A DNA stretch of 28,883 bases. Origin: a virus. Shown here piece after piece: positions 18,037-28,883 of the stretch (positions are counted from its first letter, which is position 1; each line of letters starts with the position of its first letter). Both the position numbers and the translations under genes were made by a program. The stretch spans positions 1 to 28,883 of the IMG/VR virus record IMGVR_UViG_3300035698_013279; one strand, written 5' to 3'. The notes beneath the pieces are model-generated. The model was not told the DNA's origin and did not search any database. It saw only the letters and a list, made by a program, of their open reading frames with translations.

Positions 18037-18448
18037 AACTGATCAATGGCGGTATCAAGAAATTCAGAAAAAGAAGGAGCGAGAAGACACTTGTCACAGG
18101 TTATCTAACCAGGAACATAAGCTCATCAAAAAATGGCAGCAATATCTCATTGAAAATCATCAGATGCATTTGAAAGTAGATGAATTGAAAGAGATCTGGA
18201 TTGCTTGTAAAAGAAGAATTCTGAAATTGGTTGAGCTAGGCCATTGTAATCTAAACTTCCTCGATATCTGTTTGAAATGGGTAACGTTTGGCCCTGCAAA
18301 TATATTCTTACGGCTTCAGTCTAAGCCTACAGGACGGTTGAGTCAAACCCTGAAAGAAGTCGAGAAAGTTTACTATAACCAGAGAAAAACACATGGAGCA
18401 GAAAAGAGATTTCGAAATCATCATATGAAAAAATGGGAAAAGCTTTAG
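18026..18448 (+). CDS. Hypothetical helical basic protein
   Basis: This 140-residue protein is mostly helical and charged. I chose ATG 18026 because it overlaps the previous stop in the style of this operon; an earlier ATG at 17942 would be within the previous gene. It contains QEHKLIKKWQQYLIENHQMH and FLDICLKWVTFGPANIFLRLQ. No recognised domain. Its stop overlaps the stop of the convergent adenine methyltransferase by three bases, leaving no room for a terminator. Confidence 0.65.
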   Translation: MLNKTDQWRYQEIQKKKEREDTCHRLSNQEHKLIKKWQQYLIENHQMHLKVDELKEIWIACKRRILKLVELGHCNLNFLDICLKWVTFGPANIFLRLQSKPTGRLSQTLKEVEKVYYNQRKTHGAEKRFRNHHMKKWEKL

Positions 18449-19296
18449 AAGTTGGTTATGATTAGCTCATAAACCTCTCTGGACTTAGATTTGGCCTTGT
18501 TCCCTATTCTACGCTTAGTCATGACTCGAAGAAAATTGAAACCCCCATACAGGTTTCGAACAGCCTCAACATCGTGATTGAAAGCTATGAATTTCACACC
18601 TCTAGTGTTGAATCCACTACATAGGTCGGCTAAAGCCTTTTGTTCCCTGTATTCAAATCCTTCGGCTGTGTACGAGGTAAAATTCGATGTGATTGAATAC
18701 GGAACGTAAGGTGGATCTAGAACAACGAAGTCGCCTTGGAGAGGTGGATAGTTTTCAAAGAGAGATCTGAAATCACAAGTAGCTAATAAAGCTCGTTGTA
18801 ATAACTTAGACCATTCACGCAAAATGGTTATGGTTGGTACTTTTCTCTTCATGTGATCTGAAGGATGAATGGGGGAATTAAATCCCCCATTCTTATTGTA
18901 TCGACACAGACCGTTGAAACACTTGGCGTTCATGTAGAGAAACATTATGGCACGATTCAAGCCGATGTCTTGTTCCATCTTGCGGTTGAACCTTGCACGA
19001 ACTCTGTAGTAATATTCTTTGTCATGAAGAGATGCCATCTGTTTCAGTTTCTTACCCACGAGCAAGGGAGCCTTTTTAATAGCTTTCATAGTTAGCATTA
19101 AATCGGTCTGTGCATCAGAAATAACTGCTCTGTTCCAGGTTAGTTTTTCAATGAAATATTTATAGAGCCCTCCCCCTCCTAGAAAGGGCTCATAGTAACA
19201 ACCCACTTTAGTAGGAAAGTTTAGTTTATCGAGATAAGGATACATCCAAGTTTTGCCACCGGCCCACTTGAGAGGAGACCTTACAGAATTGGGCAC
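18445..19296 (-). CDS. dam: DNA adenine N6-methyltransferase (D12 / Dam family)
   Basis: This 283-residue enzyme has the full Dam signature: PLKWAGGK (8-15, SAM binding), EPFLGGGG (36-43), FNGLCRYNKNGGFNSPI (about 127-143) and DPPY (194-197, catalytic), in the alpha-type order. Dam relatives methylate GATC, but target specificity is not proven here. It transfers methyl from SAM to adenine N6, which can block host restriction and mark replicated DNA. It is downstream of dNMP kinase with a 16-base overlap on the minus strand and converges on the gene ending at 18448. Confidence 0.93.
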   Translation of the reverse strand: MPNSVRSPLKWAGGKTWMYPYLDKLNFPTKVGCYYEPFLGGGGLYKYFIEKLTWNRAVISDAQTDLMLTMKAIKKAPLLVGKKLKQMASLHDKEYYYRVRARFNRKMEQDIGLNRAIMFLYMNAKCFNGLCRYNKNGGFNSPIHPSDHMKRKVPTITILREWSKLLQRALLATCDFRSLFENYPPLQGDFVVLDPPYVPYSITSNFTSYTAEGFEYREQKALADLCSGFNTRGVKFIAFNHDVEAVRNLYGGFNFLRVMTKRRIGNKAKSKSREVYELIITNF

Positions 19297-23237: not shown

Positions 23238-23729
23238 ATGACCTTCAAAGAATATCAGAAAAAAGTAAACTATATAACTAAAATTGCCTTCAAAAAAATT
23301 AAACCATATGAAGAAGCTCAAGACATAGCGCAAGAGTTGATGATTGAGGTTTGGAAAGAAAATAGAATCTTTGCAAATGAAACTCATTGGAAGCGATGGA
23401 TGACAAAAGCAGTTAGATGGAGAGTCCATGATAAAATAAGCAGTATAAAACAGTGGCTTAATAGAACTATAAATTATGAAACTAATCAGAAAGATAGAGG
23501 AAAAAAGTATTATAACGACCGTCTAAAATACGTTGAACTCAAAGAAGCAATTGATGGAAAACTCCCTAAGAATTGTCAAGATATTATACTTCTAAAATGG
23601 CAAGGGTATAAATTCAAAGATATTGGACCTAAAGTAGGATTGACCTCAAGAACAGCAGAACGCTATTGGATTGGAACTTGTAAACCATTCTTACGATTTT
23701 TATATGGAGGAGATCATGACTCATTGTGA
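23238..23729 (+). CDS. Sigma-70 family (ECF-like) RNA polymerase sigma factor
   Basis: This 163-residue protein has the two domains of extracytoplasmic-function-type sigma factors. Region 2 (about 23-68) holds PYEEAQDIAQELMIEVWKEN and WKRWMTKAVRWRVHDKI. Region 4 (about 100-152) has LPKNCQDIILLKWQGYKFKD then GLTSRTAERYWIG, a helix-turn-helix for -35 contact. The linker (75-95) is short and basic. It would redirect host RNA polymerase to phage promoters, probably for middle or late genes, though it lies in an early operon. Its target promoters are not known. Alternative: a helix-turn-helix terminase or repressor subunit, less likely. Confidence 0.75.
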   Translation: MTFKEYQKKVNYITKIAFKKIKPYEEAQDIAQELMIEVWKENRIFANETHWKRWMTKAVRWRVHDKISSIKQWLNRTINYETNQKDRGKKYYNDRLKYVELKEAIDGKLPKNCQDIILLKWQGYKFKDIGPKVGLTSRTAERYWIGTCKPFLRFLYGGDHDSL

Positions 23730-24048
23730 TTTATGCTACGATGAAATTAAAGAAGACACTGAGGATTGGAATCGTTGTAAGCTCTACATTCCAACGGGTA
23801 AAAATACTGTTACTGCTATAATGGATCTTTTAGTGTGTGGTGAGTGCCTAGAGATTAACCTGAATGATTGGGTTAGAATATTTAAGATAGGCCCAGCAGT
23901 GCAGAACTATTCCTCTTACTTGGTTCCAGTGACATGGTTAATAGATAGGGTTCAAGAAAAAAATCAAGAACTGAATGCATTAATCACCAATCTTGGAGAT
24001 TATGATCTGAGCGCTGATATCAGAAATTTTGGAAAGGAAGAACAATGA
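23716..24048 (+). CDS. Small zinc-binding protein
   Basis: This 110-residue protein starts at ATG 23716 with GGAGG five bases upstream and overlaps the sigma gene by 14 bases. Cysteines HCDLCYDEI and VCGECLEI form a CxxC...CxxC ribbon at about residues 4-40. The rest is helical and acidic. A zinc ribbon next to a sigma factor suggests a polymerase-binding accessory factor, but this is inference from position. Confidence 0.62.
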   Translation: MTHCDLCYDEIKEDTEDWNRCKLYIPTGKNTVTAIMDLLVCGECLEINLNDWVRIFKIGPAVQNYSSYLVPVTWLIDRVQEKNQELNALITNLGDYDLSADIRNFGKEEQ

Positions 24049-24260
24049 AAGTATCGCACGTAGCTGAACGGTACCACGGCACTTTCACCAATATCTCATA
24101 TTGCGGAAAAGTGATGCGGAAAGAAGTAGGATTTACTCAGGCTGGGCATCTACTCAATGCCGAATCGAAAGGACCTGGGTTGCAACAGCCCTGGAAAAAA
24201 TGTTTGAAAGCAATTCGGAAACAAATCAATATAATCTGTGAGAGAGAAGGTGTTAAATGA
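24045..24260 (+). CDS. Small basic protein
   Basis: This 71-residue protein begins MKVSHVAERYHGTFTNISYC and ends KKCLKAIRKQINIICEREG. ATGA overlaps exist at both ends, so it belongs firmly to the operon. It has one Cys near the start and two near the C-terminus, no clear zinc pattern. No family is recognised. Confidence 0.6.
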   Translation: MKVSHVAERYHGTFTNISYCGKVMRKEVGFTQAGHLLNAESKGPGLQQPWKKCLKAIRKQINIICEREGVK

Positions 24261-24436
24261 AAGAGTTCGGAAAGATAATTGCTATCACACTCTTAACATC
24301 CCTCTGTACTAGTGCTGCTAATGAAATCATACCCTGGGTGAAGAAGAAACTTAAAAAGAAAAAAGAACCTGTGCAAATTGTAATCTATGGTAATGGCCAT
24401 GATGTCATTGTGGAGGATGGAGCACTCGATGAATGA
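24257..24436 (+). CDS. Small membrane-anchored protein
   Basis: This 59-residue protein has an N-terminal hydrophobic segment (KIIAITLLTSLCTSAANEII, residues 6-25), a basic stretch (VKKKLKKKKE) and a beta-like end (VQIVIYGNGHDVIVEDG). It looks like a single-pass protein with the charged part in the cytoplasm, or a secreted protein. It overlaps the previous stop by ATGA and the next start by ATG 24429. Function unknown. Confidence 0.6.
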   Translation: MKEFGKIIAITLLTSLCTSAANEIIPWVKKKLKKKKEPVQIVIYGNGHDVIVEDGALDE

Positions 24437-24797
24437 ATATGACAAACTAGTTATCGCTTTTAGTGCTGCTGATCTTCGTTTCACACACAGTTTATGTGCA
24501 CGGAGTGGGTTGGGTGTGATTGTTGAGGCGTTTGATACGTTCGACGATGCCTGGAAATGGTTGAAGCAATATAAAAACCCACCTAAAACAGGTACATCTC
24601 TCTTAGTTCAAAAAGTTTTCAATGACAATACATACAATAAAGGATGGCTCAGATTTGATGTGTCAGAACTTCGGTCTGTAAAAATCATACTGGGAAGTAA
24701 AACACTAATTCAATTTAAGGGACATGTTGAAACATATGAAATTGAGTTTGACTATAAAACCCTGATTAAAATATGGAAGGAATATTTACAACAATGA
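24429..24797 (+). CDS. Hypothetical protein
   Basis: This 122-residue protein, MNEYDKLVIAFSAADLRFTH, is alpha/beta. Strand-helix units include GLGVIVEAFDTFDDAWKWLK and VKIILGSKTLIQFKGHVETY. I chose ATG 24429 because it overlaps the previous stop; an earlier in-frame ATG at 24387 is inside that gene. The fold might bind a small protein or nucleotide, but nothing decisive is seen. Confidence 0.62.
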   Translation: MNEYDKLVIAFSAADLRFTHSLCARSGLGVIVEAFDTFDDAWKWLKQYKNPPKTGTSLLVQKVFNDNTYNKGWLRFDVSELRSVKIILGSKTLIQFKGHVETYEIEFDYKTLIKIWKEYLQQ

Positions 24798-25157
24798 ACA
24801 ATGAAAAACTAGACAGCACCATAGAAACAATGACACTAATCAATCTCACCGCAAGGACGTTTACTCACCCCAACAACGTTTACTCACCCCAACAAAGAAA
24901 TGATAGTGGCCACTATAAAGCGATTAGCGCTAAAAGGAAAAAAGTTAGTATCTATAGTTGAAGAAGGGTCTGAAATTATTGCCACTTGGCATGGTGATGT
25001 AAGGCTGATATTTAGGGGAGATGGATATGATCAGCCTTACACAGTTTATGTCGTAGATAAGTTCTGGAAACCTACAATGGAATGGATGAGATATTGCACA
25101 AAAAACAACACAACTCTCATCATTGACCTGATGGCAGATATGGCTAGATATGAGTAA
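24794..25157 (+). pseudogene. Early gene split by a 19-bp tandem duplication (frameshift)
   Basis: ATG 24794 starts a frame that stops at 24961 after 55 codons, and a second frame runs from 24900 (MIVATIKRLALKGKKLVSIV) to 25157. The 19-base unit ACGTTTACTCACCCCAACA is repeated back-to-back at 24857-24894. Removing one copy makes the length 345 bases (115 codons), and the two parts join as RTFTHPNKEMIVATIKRLAL. The ancestral product would be 114 residues of alpha/beta type. The copy may be a true break, a slippage switch, or an assembly error. The downstream half has an ATG of its own and could still be translated. Confidence 0.72.
24857..24894 (+). repeat. 19-bp tandem duplication
   Basis: Two perfect adjacent copies of ACGTTTACTCACCCCAACA (24857-24875 and 24876-24894). 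The unit length is not a multiple of three, so it shifts the frame of the surrounding gene. Confidence 0.9.
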
Positions 25158-25344
25158 ACGCAATATTACATTTTCATGTGTGTGGGTTCAGTACACTGCC
25201 CCATATTATAGTCTCTACGAAATCAGCTATTATGACAATGGAAAGACAATGACATCACAAAGAATATTCAGAGATCGTTTTTCACGAAAAGAAGTAGCAT
25301 CATTTGTCAAACGTGAACTCGATTTCATTCTAGGAGAATCATAA
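25150..25344 (+). CDS. Small hypothetical protein (paralogous pair, member 1)
   Basis: This 64-residue protein is beta-rich: VWVQYTAPYYSLYEISYYDN then a basic half (GKTMTSQRIFRDRFSRKEVA). The ...YEISYY... core resembles YEVSYY in the next gene, so the two may be related by duplication. The overlap with the split gene is eight bases. No function known. Confidence 0.62.
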   Translation: MSKRNITFSCVWVQYTAPYYSLYEISYYDNGKTMTSQRIFRDRFSRKEVASFVKRELDFILGES

Positions 25345-25550
25345 TGTCCGGGGTCTCATACATCTACATACTTACAGAATTCATTCAAGGTAGGGTTGAT
25401 TCTCATTACGAGGTTAGTTATTACTGCCGTCTAGGAACTGCTGGATTTCATATTGAGCGACGGCATAAAGTTTCAATACCTAAACGCCTAGTAAATGGAA
25501 TTTTCGTAGGAGAAGATTTCACACTGATCAGAAAGAAAATTATATCATGA
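25344..25550 (+). CDS. Small hypothetical protein (paralogous pair, member 2)
   Basis: This 68-residue protein is beta-rich: IYILTEFIQGRVDSHYEVSY, then a basic hairpin (ERRHKVSIPKRLVNGIF). It shares the [FY]...YE[IV]SYY pattern with the preceding gene. The start is a one-base TAATG overlap. It is likely co-translated with it. Confidence 0.62.
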   Translation: MSGVSYIYILTEFIQGRVDSHYEVSYYCRLGTAGFHIERRHKVSIPKRLVNGIFVGEDFTLIRKKIIS

Positions 25551-25621
25551 AAAAGAAGTTAGATGAACGACTATTCTTTCACCTGTGTTGTTCGTGCTGC
25601 CATGAGGGAGGGAAATGCTAG
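25547..25621 (+). CDS. Very small Cys-rich peptide, alternative frame
   Basis: A 24-residue frame in an ATGA overlap with the previous gene reads MKKKLDERLFFHLCCSCCHE GGKC. Five Cys and two His in 13 residues could bind one zinc. It overlaps the 25563 gene almost entirely in another frame. It may be a real microprotein or chance; the ATGA coupling is the only positive sign. Confidence 0.35.
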   Translation: MKKKLDERLFFHLCCSCCHEGGKC

Positions 25622-25688
25622 AACTGGATGGATCACAGTAGAAGGACAATGGGAGTTAACCAACAATCCAGAGAAATGGGAAGTATGA
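25563..25688 (+). CDS. Small hypothetical protein
   Basis: This 41-residue frame (MNDYSFTCVVRAAMREGNAR TGWITVEGQWELTNNPEKWEV) links the previous gene and the next: its stop overlaps the next ATG (ATGA). It is a plausible short beta protein with Trp-rich end. The ribosome site (AGAAG) is weak. I favour it over the 24-residue overlapping peptide because its end fits the operon's coupling pattern. Confidence 0.5.
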   Translation: MNDYSFTCVVRAAMREGNARTGWITVEGQWELTNNPEKWEV

Positions 25689-25939
25689 ACTACTCCGAAT
25701 ACCGATTACAATTACCGTCAGGATATTACTATCGGTGTTTGCGCAAGTTGCTCGACCGATATATCCACCCTAAAGAAAAGGTTAGTGGCCATGAGTGGTT
25801 TAATATTGAAAGAGGGGAAACTGTTGTTGTCTTTTCGACATACCCAGAACAGTTTGTTCTGCACGTTATGACCACCACTGTGGGAGGCAAATACCCACTA
25901 ACCCATGGGCATTTGAAAAGCTCTATAAGAGGAGAATAG
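25685..25939 (+). CDS. Hypothetical protein
   Basis: This 84-residue protein starts at ATG 25685 in an ATGA overlap (MNYSEYRLQLPSGYYYRCLR). A longer in-frame start at 25628 lies inside the previous gene and is unlikely. It is basic with helix LLDRYIHPKEKV and beta strands GETVVVFSTYPEQFVLHVMT. No family recognised. Confidence 0.65.
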   Translation: MNYSEYRLQLPSGYYYRCLRKLLDRYIHPKEKVSGHEWFNIERGETVVVFSTYPEQFVLHVMTTTVGGKYPLTHGHLKSSIRGE

Positions 25940-25943
25940 AATT

Positions 25944-26393
25944 ATGGAACATCTAAGCTATCTAAGTGAAAACAGAAAACATCGAAACCGAGTCTATGAG
26001 ATATTGGGTATGGTATGTAGACTGTTAGAAGTAAGAGCAAACACTCATGACATCACCAAAACTCAAGAGCCTGAACTAACTGGCTTCTCAGAATCATATG
26101 AAGGGTTAAGGGGGTTGACTTATGGGTCGTCTGAATATATGGAACGATTACTTGAACTTAAACCCTACTTAGACATACACTACAAAAACAACCTGCATCA
26201 CCCTGAACACTATAAAAATGGGATAGAGAGTATGACGCTAATAGATATCGTCGAAATGCTAGCTGACTGGCTAGCCGCCACTGAAAAACATGAGGACGGA
26301 GATATTAACGTATCTATCAATCACAATCAAAAGCGGTATAAAATATCAGATCAGCTAACTCAAATCTTTAGAAACACAGTGAAAGTATTATGA
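25944..26393 (+). CDS. DUF5662-like protein
   Basis: This 149-residue protein is largely helical. It has THDITKTQEPELTGF (about residues 34-48), HYKNNLHHPEHYKNGI (about 79-94) and MTLIDIVEMLADWLAATEKH (about 96-115). His-rich motifs of the type HD...HHPEH...D..EMLADW.AAT recur in the DUF5662 family, found in phages and Firmicutes; they resemble metal-binding sites of HD-like hydrolases, but activity is unproven. Ribosome site AGGAG lies upstream. It ends in an ATGA overlap with the next gene. Confidence 0.72.
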   Translation: MEHLSYLSENRKHRNRVYEILGMVCRLLEVRANTHDITKTQEPELTGFSESYEGLRGLTYGSSEYMERLLELKPYLDIHYKNNLHHPEHYKNGIESMTLIDIVEMLADWLAATEKHEDGDINVSINHNQKRYKISDQLTQIFRNTVKVL

Positions 26394-26590
26394 GAGATAT
26401 CTATCGCAAGGACTATTCAAATTATAACGGGGATAATAATGAAGAAGTGTTTATAACATACTTTTCCTCACTGAAAAAGTGTGTAGACCATGCTCACAGT
26501 ATAGGCCATACACACTTCAACCCTGGCAAGCTAATCAGTTTTCATTACCACAGCAAAAACGTAGCTGTGAATAGGGTGGTGGTCTGCTGA
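26390..26590 (+). CDS. Small hypothetical protein
   Basis: This 66-residue protein has MRDIYRKDYSNYNGDNNEEV then a helix SLKKCVDHAHSIGHTHFNPG with several His (DHAHSIGHTHF) that could bind metal, and a C-terminal strand (VAVNRVVVC). ATGA overlaps upstream; the stop overlaps the next ATG by one base. No family recognised. Confidence 0.6.
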   Translation: MRDIYRKDYSNYNGDNNEEVFITYFSSLKKCVDHAHSIGHTHFNPGKLISFHYHSKNVAVNRVVVC

Positions 26591-26880
26591 TGTTTGTTCT
26601 AGAAATTTTGGACGATGGCGGCTGGCGTAGTCGGGGTAAATATTTCACTAAACAAAAAGCACTACTGAGATCTGCGAGGTATAAAGAATGGAAAGTATCT
26701 GAAGAGGTATATACGCTCATCATTTACCGTTCATCCTGGCGAGAATCGATTAAAAGTAAAACTAATTTTGACACTTTAACACAAGCATATAGGTTTGCTG
26801 GTGACGAAAAATACTGGGACATAAGAGCAGACTTGGCCTTACTCCAAATGCAAGAGGTGAGCGCTAATGAAAATTCCTAA
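26590..26880 (+). CDS. Small hypothetical protein
   Basis: This 96-residue protein begins MFVLEILDDGGWRSRGKYFT. It has a helix KQKALLRSARYKEWKVSEEV and a strand TLIIYRSSW, then KSKTNFDTLTQAYRFAGDEK. Its start overlaps the previous stop by one base (TGATG). The pattern of a strand-Trp-strand-helix start is shared by several small proteins in this operon, but similarity is too weak to claim paralogy. No function known. Confidence 0.62.
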   Translation: MFVLEILDDGGWRSRGKYFTKQKALLRSARYKEWKVSEEVYTLIIYRSSWRESIKSKTNFDTLTQAYRFAGDEKYWDIRADLALLQMQEVSANENS

Positions 26881-27004
26881 GAGAAACAAACGCAAATGCT
26901 CTCGTCACAAGTATATGAAAGCCTATTATCAGAGACTCCATGGAAAGCCCCGCTTATATCGTATAGGGTGGGCACAACTCATAGAAGACACTACCCATAA
27001 GTGA
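26867..27004 (+). CDS. Small basic protein, last gene of the main early operon
   Basis: This 45-residue protein (MKIPKRNKRKCSRHKYMKAY...) is strongly basic at the N-terminus and would bind nucleic acid. The ribosome site GAGGTGA with six to seven bases of spacing is very good. It overlaps the previous gene by 14 bases and ends 18 bases before the first palindrome of the array. Confidence 0.62.
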   Translation: MKIPKRNKRKCSRHKYMKAYYQRLHGKPRLYRIGWAQLIEDTTHK

Positions 27005-27021
27005 ACCACTAATACTCATCG

Positions 27022-27042
27022 GATTCTTACGGCGTAAGAATC
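27022..27042. repeat. Palindrome array, copy A
   Basis: The arms GATTCTTAC and GTAAGAATC flank GGC, a 9-3-9 perfect palindrome. It extends the core TCTTACNNNGTAAGA by three bases on each side. Confidence 0.8.
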
Positions 27043-27088
27043 ATGGCTAAATTCTACTCTCTCATTTACACAATCTAATACCCACTCG

Positions 27089-27109
27089 GATTCTTACGCC
27101 GTAAGAATC
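27089..27109. repeat. Palindrome array, copy B
   Basis: Same arms as copy A (GATTCTTAC / GTAAGAATC), with centre GCC, the complement of copy A's GGC. Confidence 0.8.
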
Positions 27110-27155
27110 ATGGCTAAATTCTACTCTCTCATTTACACAATCTAATACCCACTCA

Positions 27156-27176
27156 CATTCTTACGCCGTAAGAATG
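27156..27176. repeat. Palindrome array, copy C
   Basis: Arms CATTCTTAC and GTAAGAATG, centre GCC. It ends directly before the triple-HTH gene's stop codon. Confidence 0.8.
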
Positions 27177-27177
27177 G

Positions 27178-27723
27178 TTACTTTACATGATTCCATGATT
27201 TCCTTCGTTTAATATCAGATATCGTACCAGGAGTAACCCCAAATTTCTTAGCTATCTCAACACCACTTAATATACCTATCAGTTTCCTTATCGCAATAAC
27301 ATCTATCTCAGTTAACTTAGCATTGCCATTAGAACGCCCGATACACTTCGATACTCTTGAATATGGCCCTTTCCATAGATAATGCCACGATTTACCAGTG
27401 TATATGTCTCTGATGGCAGCCATACTTACTTTATATAAACATGCAACGTCTCCTAACTCCATATCCGTCAAAAATAAACGATTGATTTCGATCACCTGAT
27501 CTCGACTTAATTTACCTGTGTGATGAGGTATTATTCTAGCTTTAGGATATGGACCCCTATACAGCCACTTCCAAGTCTTTCCATTAACAATGCTATACAC
27601 TGTAGATAGAGATACATTAAATCTCTCAGCTATAGCACAACGTGTTTCCATGGAAAGCAACCTTTCCACAATTTTAACAACATCACTCTCAGTTAACTTA
27701 GCATTTGCCCTTCGAACTTTCAT
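27178..27723 (-). CDS. Triple helix-turn-helix DNA-binding protein
   Basis: This 181-residue protein is three tandem modules of ~60 residues: KLTESDVVKIVERLLS...IAERFNVSLSTVYSIVNGKTW (about 10-53), KLSRDQVIEINRLFL...VACLYKVSMAAIRDIYTGKSW (about 71-113), and AKLTEIDVIAIRKL...IAKKFGVTPGTISDIKRRKSW (about 135-177). Each is a helix-turn-helix like those at the C-termini of HNH homing endonucleases, but no HNH or other nuclease part is present. It is probably a sequence-specific DNA-binding factor, or a remnant of such a nuclease. It has its own promoter and AGGAGG site. The palindrome array lies just past its stop. Confidence 0.78.
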   Translation of the reverse strand: MKVRRANAKLTESDVVKIVERLLSMETRCAIAERFNVSLSTVYSIVNGKTWKWLYRGPYPKARIIPHHTGKLSRDQVIEINRLFLTDMELGDVACLYKVSMAAIRDIYTGKSWHYLWKGPYSRVSKCIGRSNGNAKLTEIDVIAIRKLIGILSGVEIAKKFGVTPGTISDIKRRKSWNHVK

Positions 27724-28200: not shown

Positions 28201-28336
28201 CATAGCCTACGTATTATCACCTATGATACACATGCAATACCCTATTATCACCAATAATTACATGCACTAGCCTACCCTATGCCATAGCCTACGTATTATC
28301 ACCAATGGCACACATGCAATACCCTATTATCACCAA
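28201..28336. repeat. Two 54-bp imperfect direct repeats
   Basis: 28201-28254 and 28283-28336 both read CATAGCCTACGTATTATCAC ... CACATGCAATACCCTATTAT ... CACCAA, with three differences near the middle. TATCACC also recurs within each copy and again at 28595. The repeats lie 82 bases apart. Confidence 0.75.
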
Positions 28337-28395
28337 TGGCACTAGACCGTAATGCAATCACGATACTTGCGCAAGAACTGTGGTGTCCATTGTAG

Positions 28396-28425
28396 GTGTG
28401 CTGTGCTGTGCTGTGCTGTGCTGTG
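28396..28425. repeat. CTGTG microsatellite
   Basis: Five perfect CTGTG units follow a GTGTG start. This is a simple 5-base tandem run prone to slippage. Confidence 0.85.
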
Positions 28426-28463
28426 GTACTGCGAGGGTACTGCGAGGGTACTGCGAGGGTACT
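28426..28463. repeat. 11-bp tandem repeat GTACTGCGAGG
   Basis: Three full units (28426-28436, 28437-28447, 28448-28458) and a partial GTACT fourth follow directly on the CTGTG run. Confidence 0.85.
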
Positions 28464-28464
28464 A

Positions 28465-28529
28465 CCCTGTAAGAATCCCAACACGTGCTGTGCTATTAAT
28501 TTCTGCCGCGACCTATACTTAGGTATAGG
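28465..28529 (+). promoter_or_regulatory. Possible promoter and short hairpin (candidate RNA gene)
   Basis: A half-palindrome CTGTAAGAATC (28468-28478) is followed, after a gap like that at the leftward dNMP kinase promoter, by TGTGCTATTAAT. A 7-bp hairpin, CCTATAC-TTAG-GTATAGG, lies at 28512-28529. No gene follows. A short phage RNA is conceivable but unproven. Confidence 0.35.
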
Positions 28530-28802
28530 GCAAGGGCAAATAGTGGCTATATGATAGTGTGTCGGCCTCCTCATGGGTGAGATAGTGGGCAAATATCACC
28601 AATACGTGATCATATCACGTTCAAAAAAAAAACTTGAACATAAGAAAAATTGAAACGAGGATAGAATCTATCCTGGATGGGGGTGACGTGTAGACAGTAA
28701 TAAAGGCTTGAGAAAGGATAGGGTATGGAGGGTATGGAGGATAGGCTTAATAAGAGCGTGGTAAAGGATAGGGTAGGTAGGTGGACAGCGGTATAGGCTA
28801 CT

Positions 28803-28883
28803 TAGTAATAGAATCCTAGTTAGTAATAGAATCCTAGTTAGTAATAGAATCCTAGTTAGTAATAGAATCCTAGTTAGTAATAG
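28803..28883. repeat. 18-bp tandem repeat running off the right edge
   Basis: TAGTAATAGAATCCTAGT occurs four times in a row from 28803 and a fifth copy is cut by the window end. The array is probably longer than seen. Confidence 0.9.

Follow-up and report, generated by a model that had tools for sequence, protein, structure and literature searches.

Do the two overlapping reading frames at 24794-25157 of this viral DNA encode two proteins, or are they the remains of one gene interrupted by a short duplication? The window analysed here is the entire IMG/VR record, 28,883 bases without a run of N. Judged by its predicted terminase, portal, major head, and tape-measure proteins, the source is an uncultured tailed phage. 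The structural genes occupy the minus strand between 0.6 and 15.6 kb, and from 15.7 kb onward small genes follow, mostly on the plus strand. The two frames, ORF1 and ORF2, belong to an operon of 13 frames at 24045-27004 (Table 1). The initial annotation read them as a single early gene split by a perfect 19-bp tandem duplication. Its term "early" derives only from the place of the gene in the plus strand block beside a weakly sigma-factor-like gene, and we use it in that sense.

Table 1. Coordinates of the duplication, the gene slot, and neighbouring features in the window.
Feature	Position	Strand	Remark
Sigma-70-like protein (weak)	23238-23729	+	Pfam E 0.0011 and 0.0085, both below curated cut-offs
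Upstream neighbour of the slot	24429-24797	+	Joins ORF1 by ATGA overlap
Single gene slot, 364 nt (1 mod 3)	24794-25157	+	Overlaps its neighbours by 4 and 8 nt
ORF1, 55 aa	24794-24961	+	Probable true slot start; 27 residues through the end of copy 1, then 28 in the shifted frame
Imperfect partner	24845-24856	+	Matches the unit's final 12 nt at 9/12, likewise at a lag of 19 nt
Copy 1 of the 19-nt unit ACGTTTACTCACCCCAACA	24857-24875	+	Exact match
Copy 2 of the 19-nt unit ACGTTTACTCACCCCAACA	24876-24894	+	Exact match; shifts the frame of the remaining gene
ORF2, 85 aa	24900-25157	+	Probable rest of the same gene; ATG almost without a ribosome site
Next gene downstream	start 25150	+	Weak ribosome site (-2.8); overlapped by the slot by 8 nt
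DUF5662 protein	25944-26393	+ (plus strand block)	E 1.7e-28

The two copies of the unit form a perfect periodic run of 39 nt with a period of 19 (24857-24895), and no further match to the unit was found in the window, even allowing 3 mismatches. When the window was simulated 200 times with an order-2 Markov model and searched for tandem units of 8-100 nt, the longest perfect unit was 11 nt and none of the simulated windows contained a unit of ≥12 nt. The comparison set comprised 17 other viral loci totalling 172,519 bases, after removal of two loci belonging to the window and of one that overlapped. Perfect tandem units of ≥12 nt were observed in 5 of the 17, and in one of those five (L020) the unit exceeded 13 nt. 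The duplication is present in the sequence and goes beyond chance identity, yet the kind of event is not exotic. The tract consists of two exact copies and one degenerate partial copy, which falls short of a multi-unit array. We also asked whether the repeat could act as an operator or an RNA element and rejected this, as there is no third copy, the window has no Rfam match, and the repeat gave no stable fold. The unit has a 10-nt reverse complement at 25151-25160 that is perhaps due to chance, and the four matches to a 12-nt core of the unit at ≤2 mismatches, two of which are the copies themselves, are equalled in number in 4 of 100 shuffles.

A duplication of this kind could also be produced by the assembly or the library, in which case the phage DNA would carry one copy and the contig would have been misjoined at a short overlap that was left in twice. 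The record comes from an uncultured virus in IMG/VR, a bad join would be expected to look like this, with a perfect duplication close to k-mer size interrupting a gene slot that is otherwise sound, and the contig ends inside a perfect 18-nt array, a usual spot for assembly trouble. However, ordinary short reads are longer than 39 nt and can therefore span the array, the window has no run of N, and short perfect tandem units also occur in the other viral loci counted above. We consider such an artefact unlikely.

With the duplication taken as real, the phase of the two frames follows its length. The starts of ORF1 and ORF2 are 106 nt apart (+1 frame), and the frames are offset by one unit. Without one unit the slot measures 345 nt, or 115 codons including the stop, and encodes 114 aa. 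The ORF1 frame is open through copy 1 and the ORF2 frame is open from 24840 across both copies; the single-copy frame therefore contains no stop. This frame was derived by frame arithmetic and the open frames on both sides, and it bears out the initial annotation on both the exact duplication and the restored 115-codon frame.

The alternative that ORF2 is a genuine second gene, starting independently at 24900 and overlapping ORF1, is compatible with both frames being open and ATG-started, but translation signals and gene spacing speak against it. The ribosome-site duplex energy is -9.1 at the ORF1 start vs. -1.4 at the ORF2 ATG. The latter site is weaker than all 20 reference plus strand starts (mean -8.4, range -13.4 to -2.8) and is also surpassed by at least 75% of 252 ATGs that are not starts; these energies were computed against a generic 16S tail, which may differ from that of the host. 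The ORF1 stop lies 61 nt past the ORF2 ATG, a poor geometry for restart, and none of the 7 sigma-70-like plus strand promoter matches in 23700-27300 is near 24900. The 11 other junctions of the operon range from -14 to +12 nt. A single slot fits this spacing; two genes would have to overlap by 62 nt (-62 nt). Overlaps of about this length are conceivable in this phage: the portal alignment to the related L017 record starts at residue 40, which falls 59 nt inside the terminase frame, and the two genes would share at least 59 nt were the portal to start there. The terminase/portal pair was left out of the list of junction spacings. Finally, if there were two genes, the match between their phase and the length of the unit would be luck, and we regard two independent genes as very unlikely.

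Codon usage points in the same direction over the longer stretch. Over the length of ORF2, the ORF2 frame has a codon score of 0.163 vs. 0.086 and 0.008 for the other frames, and the largest off-frame score across 20 genes is 0.126. Two further stretches are not long enough to be informative: the part of ORF1 ahead of the repeat (21 codons) scores -0.10 vs. an off-frame mean of -0.03, and 24895-24958 scores -0.07 in the ORF2 frame vs. 0.01 in the ORF1 frame. Because phase, open frames, ribosome-site contrast, operon spacing, and codon score agree when taken together, the likeliest arrangement is one 115-codon gene that contains an additional copy of the unit. Our best explanation, which we consider probable, is an ORFan gene of ~114 codons carrying a frameshifting 19-nt tandem duplication. 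The ancestral single-frame state is an inferred one, as no relative with an intact single frame was found.

The flanks of the duplication suggest how it could have arisen. Exact microhomology at its edges amounts to 1 nt on the right and 0 on the left, and next to copy 1 lies the imperfect partner listed in Table 1. A 9/12 match at lag 19 is found at 31 of 11,200 positions in 15.7-26.9 kb, a frequency to be read with the length having been chosen after the match was seen. During replication of the phage DNA the growing strand may have stepped back 19 nt and copied the unit twice, with the imperfect 12-nt repeat CTCACCGCAAGG / CTCACCCCAACA at the 19-nt lag probably aiding the misalignment. The tandem match now extends over 20 nt, so a copy should be lost much more easily than gained, and the frameshift defect is in principle reversible. 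In E. coli, tandem repeats of 101 bp are known to undergo RecA-independent template switching (PMC8378479). The initial annotation had called the change recent; the identity of the copies makes this plausible, but 39 nt without relatives cannot date it.

In the two-copy genotype, ribosomes starting at 24794 would make 27 correct and 28 wrong residues and stop at 24961. Because translation from 24794 would end there, this genotype would lack the full protein, and the 85-residue remainder would be mostly untranslated. The next gene, with its weak ribosome site and the usual 8-nt overlap at its start, could lose translational coupling and may be translated less.

Relatives of the slot were sought at the DNA, protein, and structure levels. 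No relatives of ORF2 were found in viral contigs (IMG/VR patterns) or GTDB genomes, where pattern scans reach close relatives only, nor by tblastn against phage records with an E limit of 1, nor in 15 viral records including the whole L017 record. The upstream neighbour likewise had none in 14 viral records and in the pattern scans, again for close relatives only, and the 19-nt unit was absent from all viral contigs scanned. Among 50,697 phage records there is no near DNA match for 20-28.9 kb of the window, and its terminase is <60% identical to all 1172 matching phage records, the best of the matches listed being ~27%. The only near relative found is L017 (IMGVR_UViG_3300014208_000033), a viral record of 107,668 bases that was reached via the portal. 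Its portal is 52% and its terminase 42-44% identical, and the matches comprise the structural block in order, two plus strand genes, and the gene at 18445-19296. The other parts of this record (L019 and L020, 22.7 kb) gave no convincing match to a window protein, with a lowest E of 0.31 by tblastn and 0.044 by phmmer. The parts read contain different small early genes and none from this operon. Since no window protein matched convincingly in these other parts, the L017 phage offers no comparison for the slot gene. Neither ORF1 nor ORF2 has a PHROG or Pfam match. ORF2 was modelled with AlphaFold2 from its sequence alone; the model consists mainly of strand (mean pLDDT 65.6) and had no Foldseek match in BFVD or PDB at E up to 0.001; no inference was drawn from the model or from this search.

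Known systems share parts of this picture. Like frameshifts that arise by slippage or template switching, the locus has a short non-triplet unit repeated head to tail that shifts the gene and whose loss restores the frame, and it shows two features of a frameshifting short tandem duplication, namely adjacent identical non-triplet copies and an open frame in the single-copy state. The instability of tandem repeats through RecA-independent template switching has been shown for 101-bp repeats (PMC8378479), whereas here there is one case in an assembled uncultured phage. Fungal microhomology-type duplications (MTDs; e.g. in ssp1) are likewise small duplications in a coding region that lead to an early stop, and they are reversible (PMC13207564). 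They differ in having a pair of exact microhomologies of several bases at the edges, whereas the edge here shares a single exact nucleotide set in an imperfect 9/12 repeat, and reversal was not observed. In phase-variable genes, as here, the frame is set by the copy number of a non-triplet unit. Known phase-variable tracts have many units; the present tract has two, and alternative copy numbers are not in evidence. Among the papers listed by literature searches, none reported this locus or switching by short tandem duplication in phages, which is not proof of absence.

The initial annotation had also proposed a slippage switch in the population, for which we found no support: neither a second genotype nor a relative was found, and two copies are the minimum array. 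More broadly, the full protein could be kept by +1 slippage in copy 2 or switched by gain and loss of a copy. The ORF1 codons TCA CCC CAA in copy 2 include a CCC-C run in the right register that can re-pair after a one-base step, the +1 frame is that of ORF2, and some leak by this route could occur. However, there is no stop codon beside the slip site and no predicted RNA structure around it, as a 131-nt fold is weaker than the shuffle mean (z +1.19). The 20 nt of tandem identity permit copy loss by template switching, as with the 101-bp repeats of E. coli (PMC8378479), but there are only two copies, and the exact unit was not found even once in the viral contigs scanned. We judge these routes to be about as unlikely as two independent genes. 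Very unlikely, too, is that one-copy and two-copy states coexist in the phage population as a slow reversible on/off switch of an early gene, with a low leak via CCC-C slippage in copy 2.

Overall, the locus is best read as a real, ordinary frameshifting duplication in an ORFan phage gene, or possibly as an assembly error, and a switch is unproven. If the duplication were a true polymorphism, it would mark this early phage gene as dispensable or as harmful under certain conditions, and would warn that gene callers split such a gene into two ORFs; if there is no polymorphism, it is a caution for annotation or assembly.

Several other repeats were observed in the window. Within ORF2, an inverted repeat at 24998-25041 pairs perfectly over 12 bp around a 20-nt loop (RNA fold -19.5 kcal/mol, z -4.1). 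It is the only stem of ≥12 with a loop of ≤40 nt in the window, and simulated windows average 0.06 stems of ≥12. At 27009-27175, between convergent frame ends, 2.5 copies of a 67-bp unit (95% matches) carry the palindrome ATTCTTACGCCGTAAGAAT, making this a candidate terminator-like or operator array. Beyond it, the minus strand at 27178-27723 encodes a protein of 181 aa that has helix-turn-helix matches (HTH_23, E 5e-8) and resembles a threefold repeat of an HTH unit. The right end of the window (28212-28883) is gene-poor and contains tandem arrays with units of 31, 5, 11, 9, and 18 nt, the perfect 18-nt array being the one in which the contig ends.
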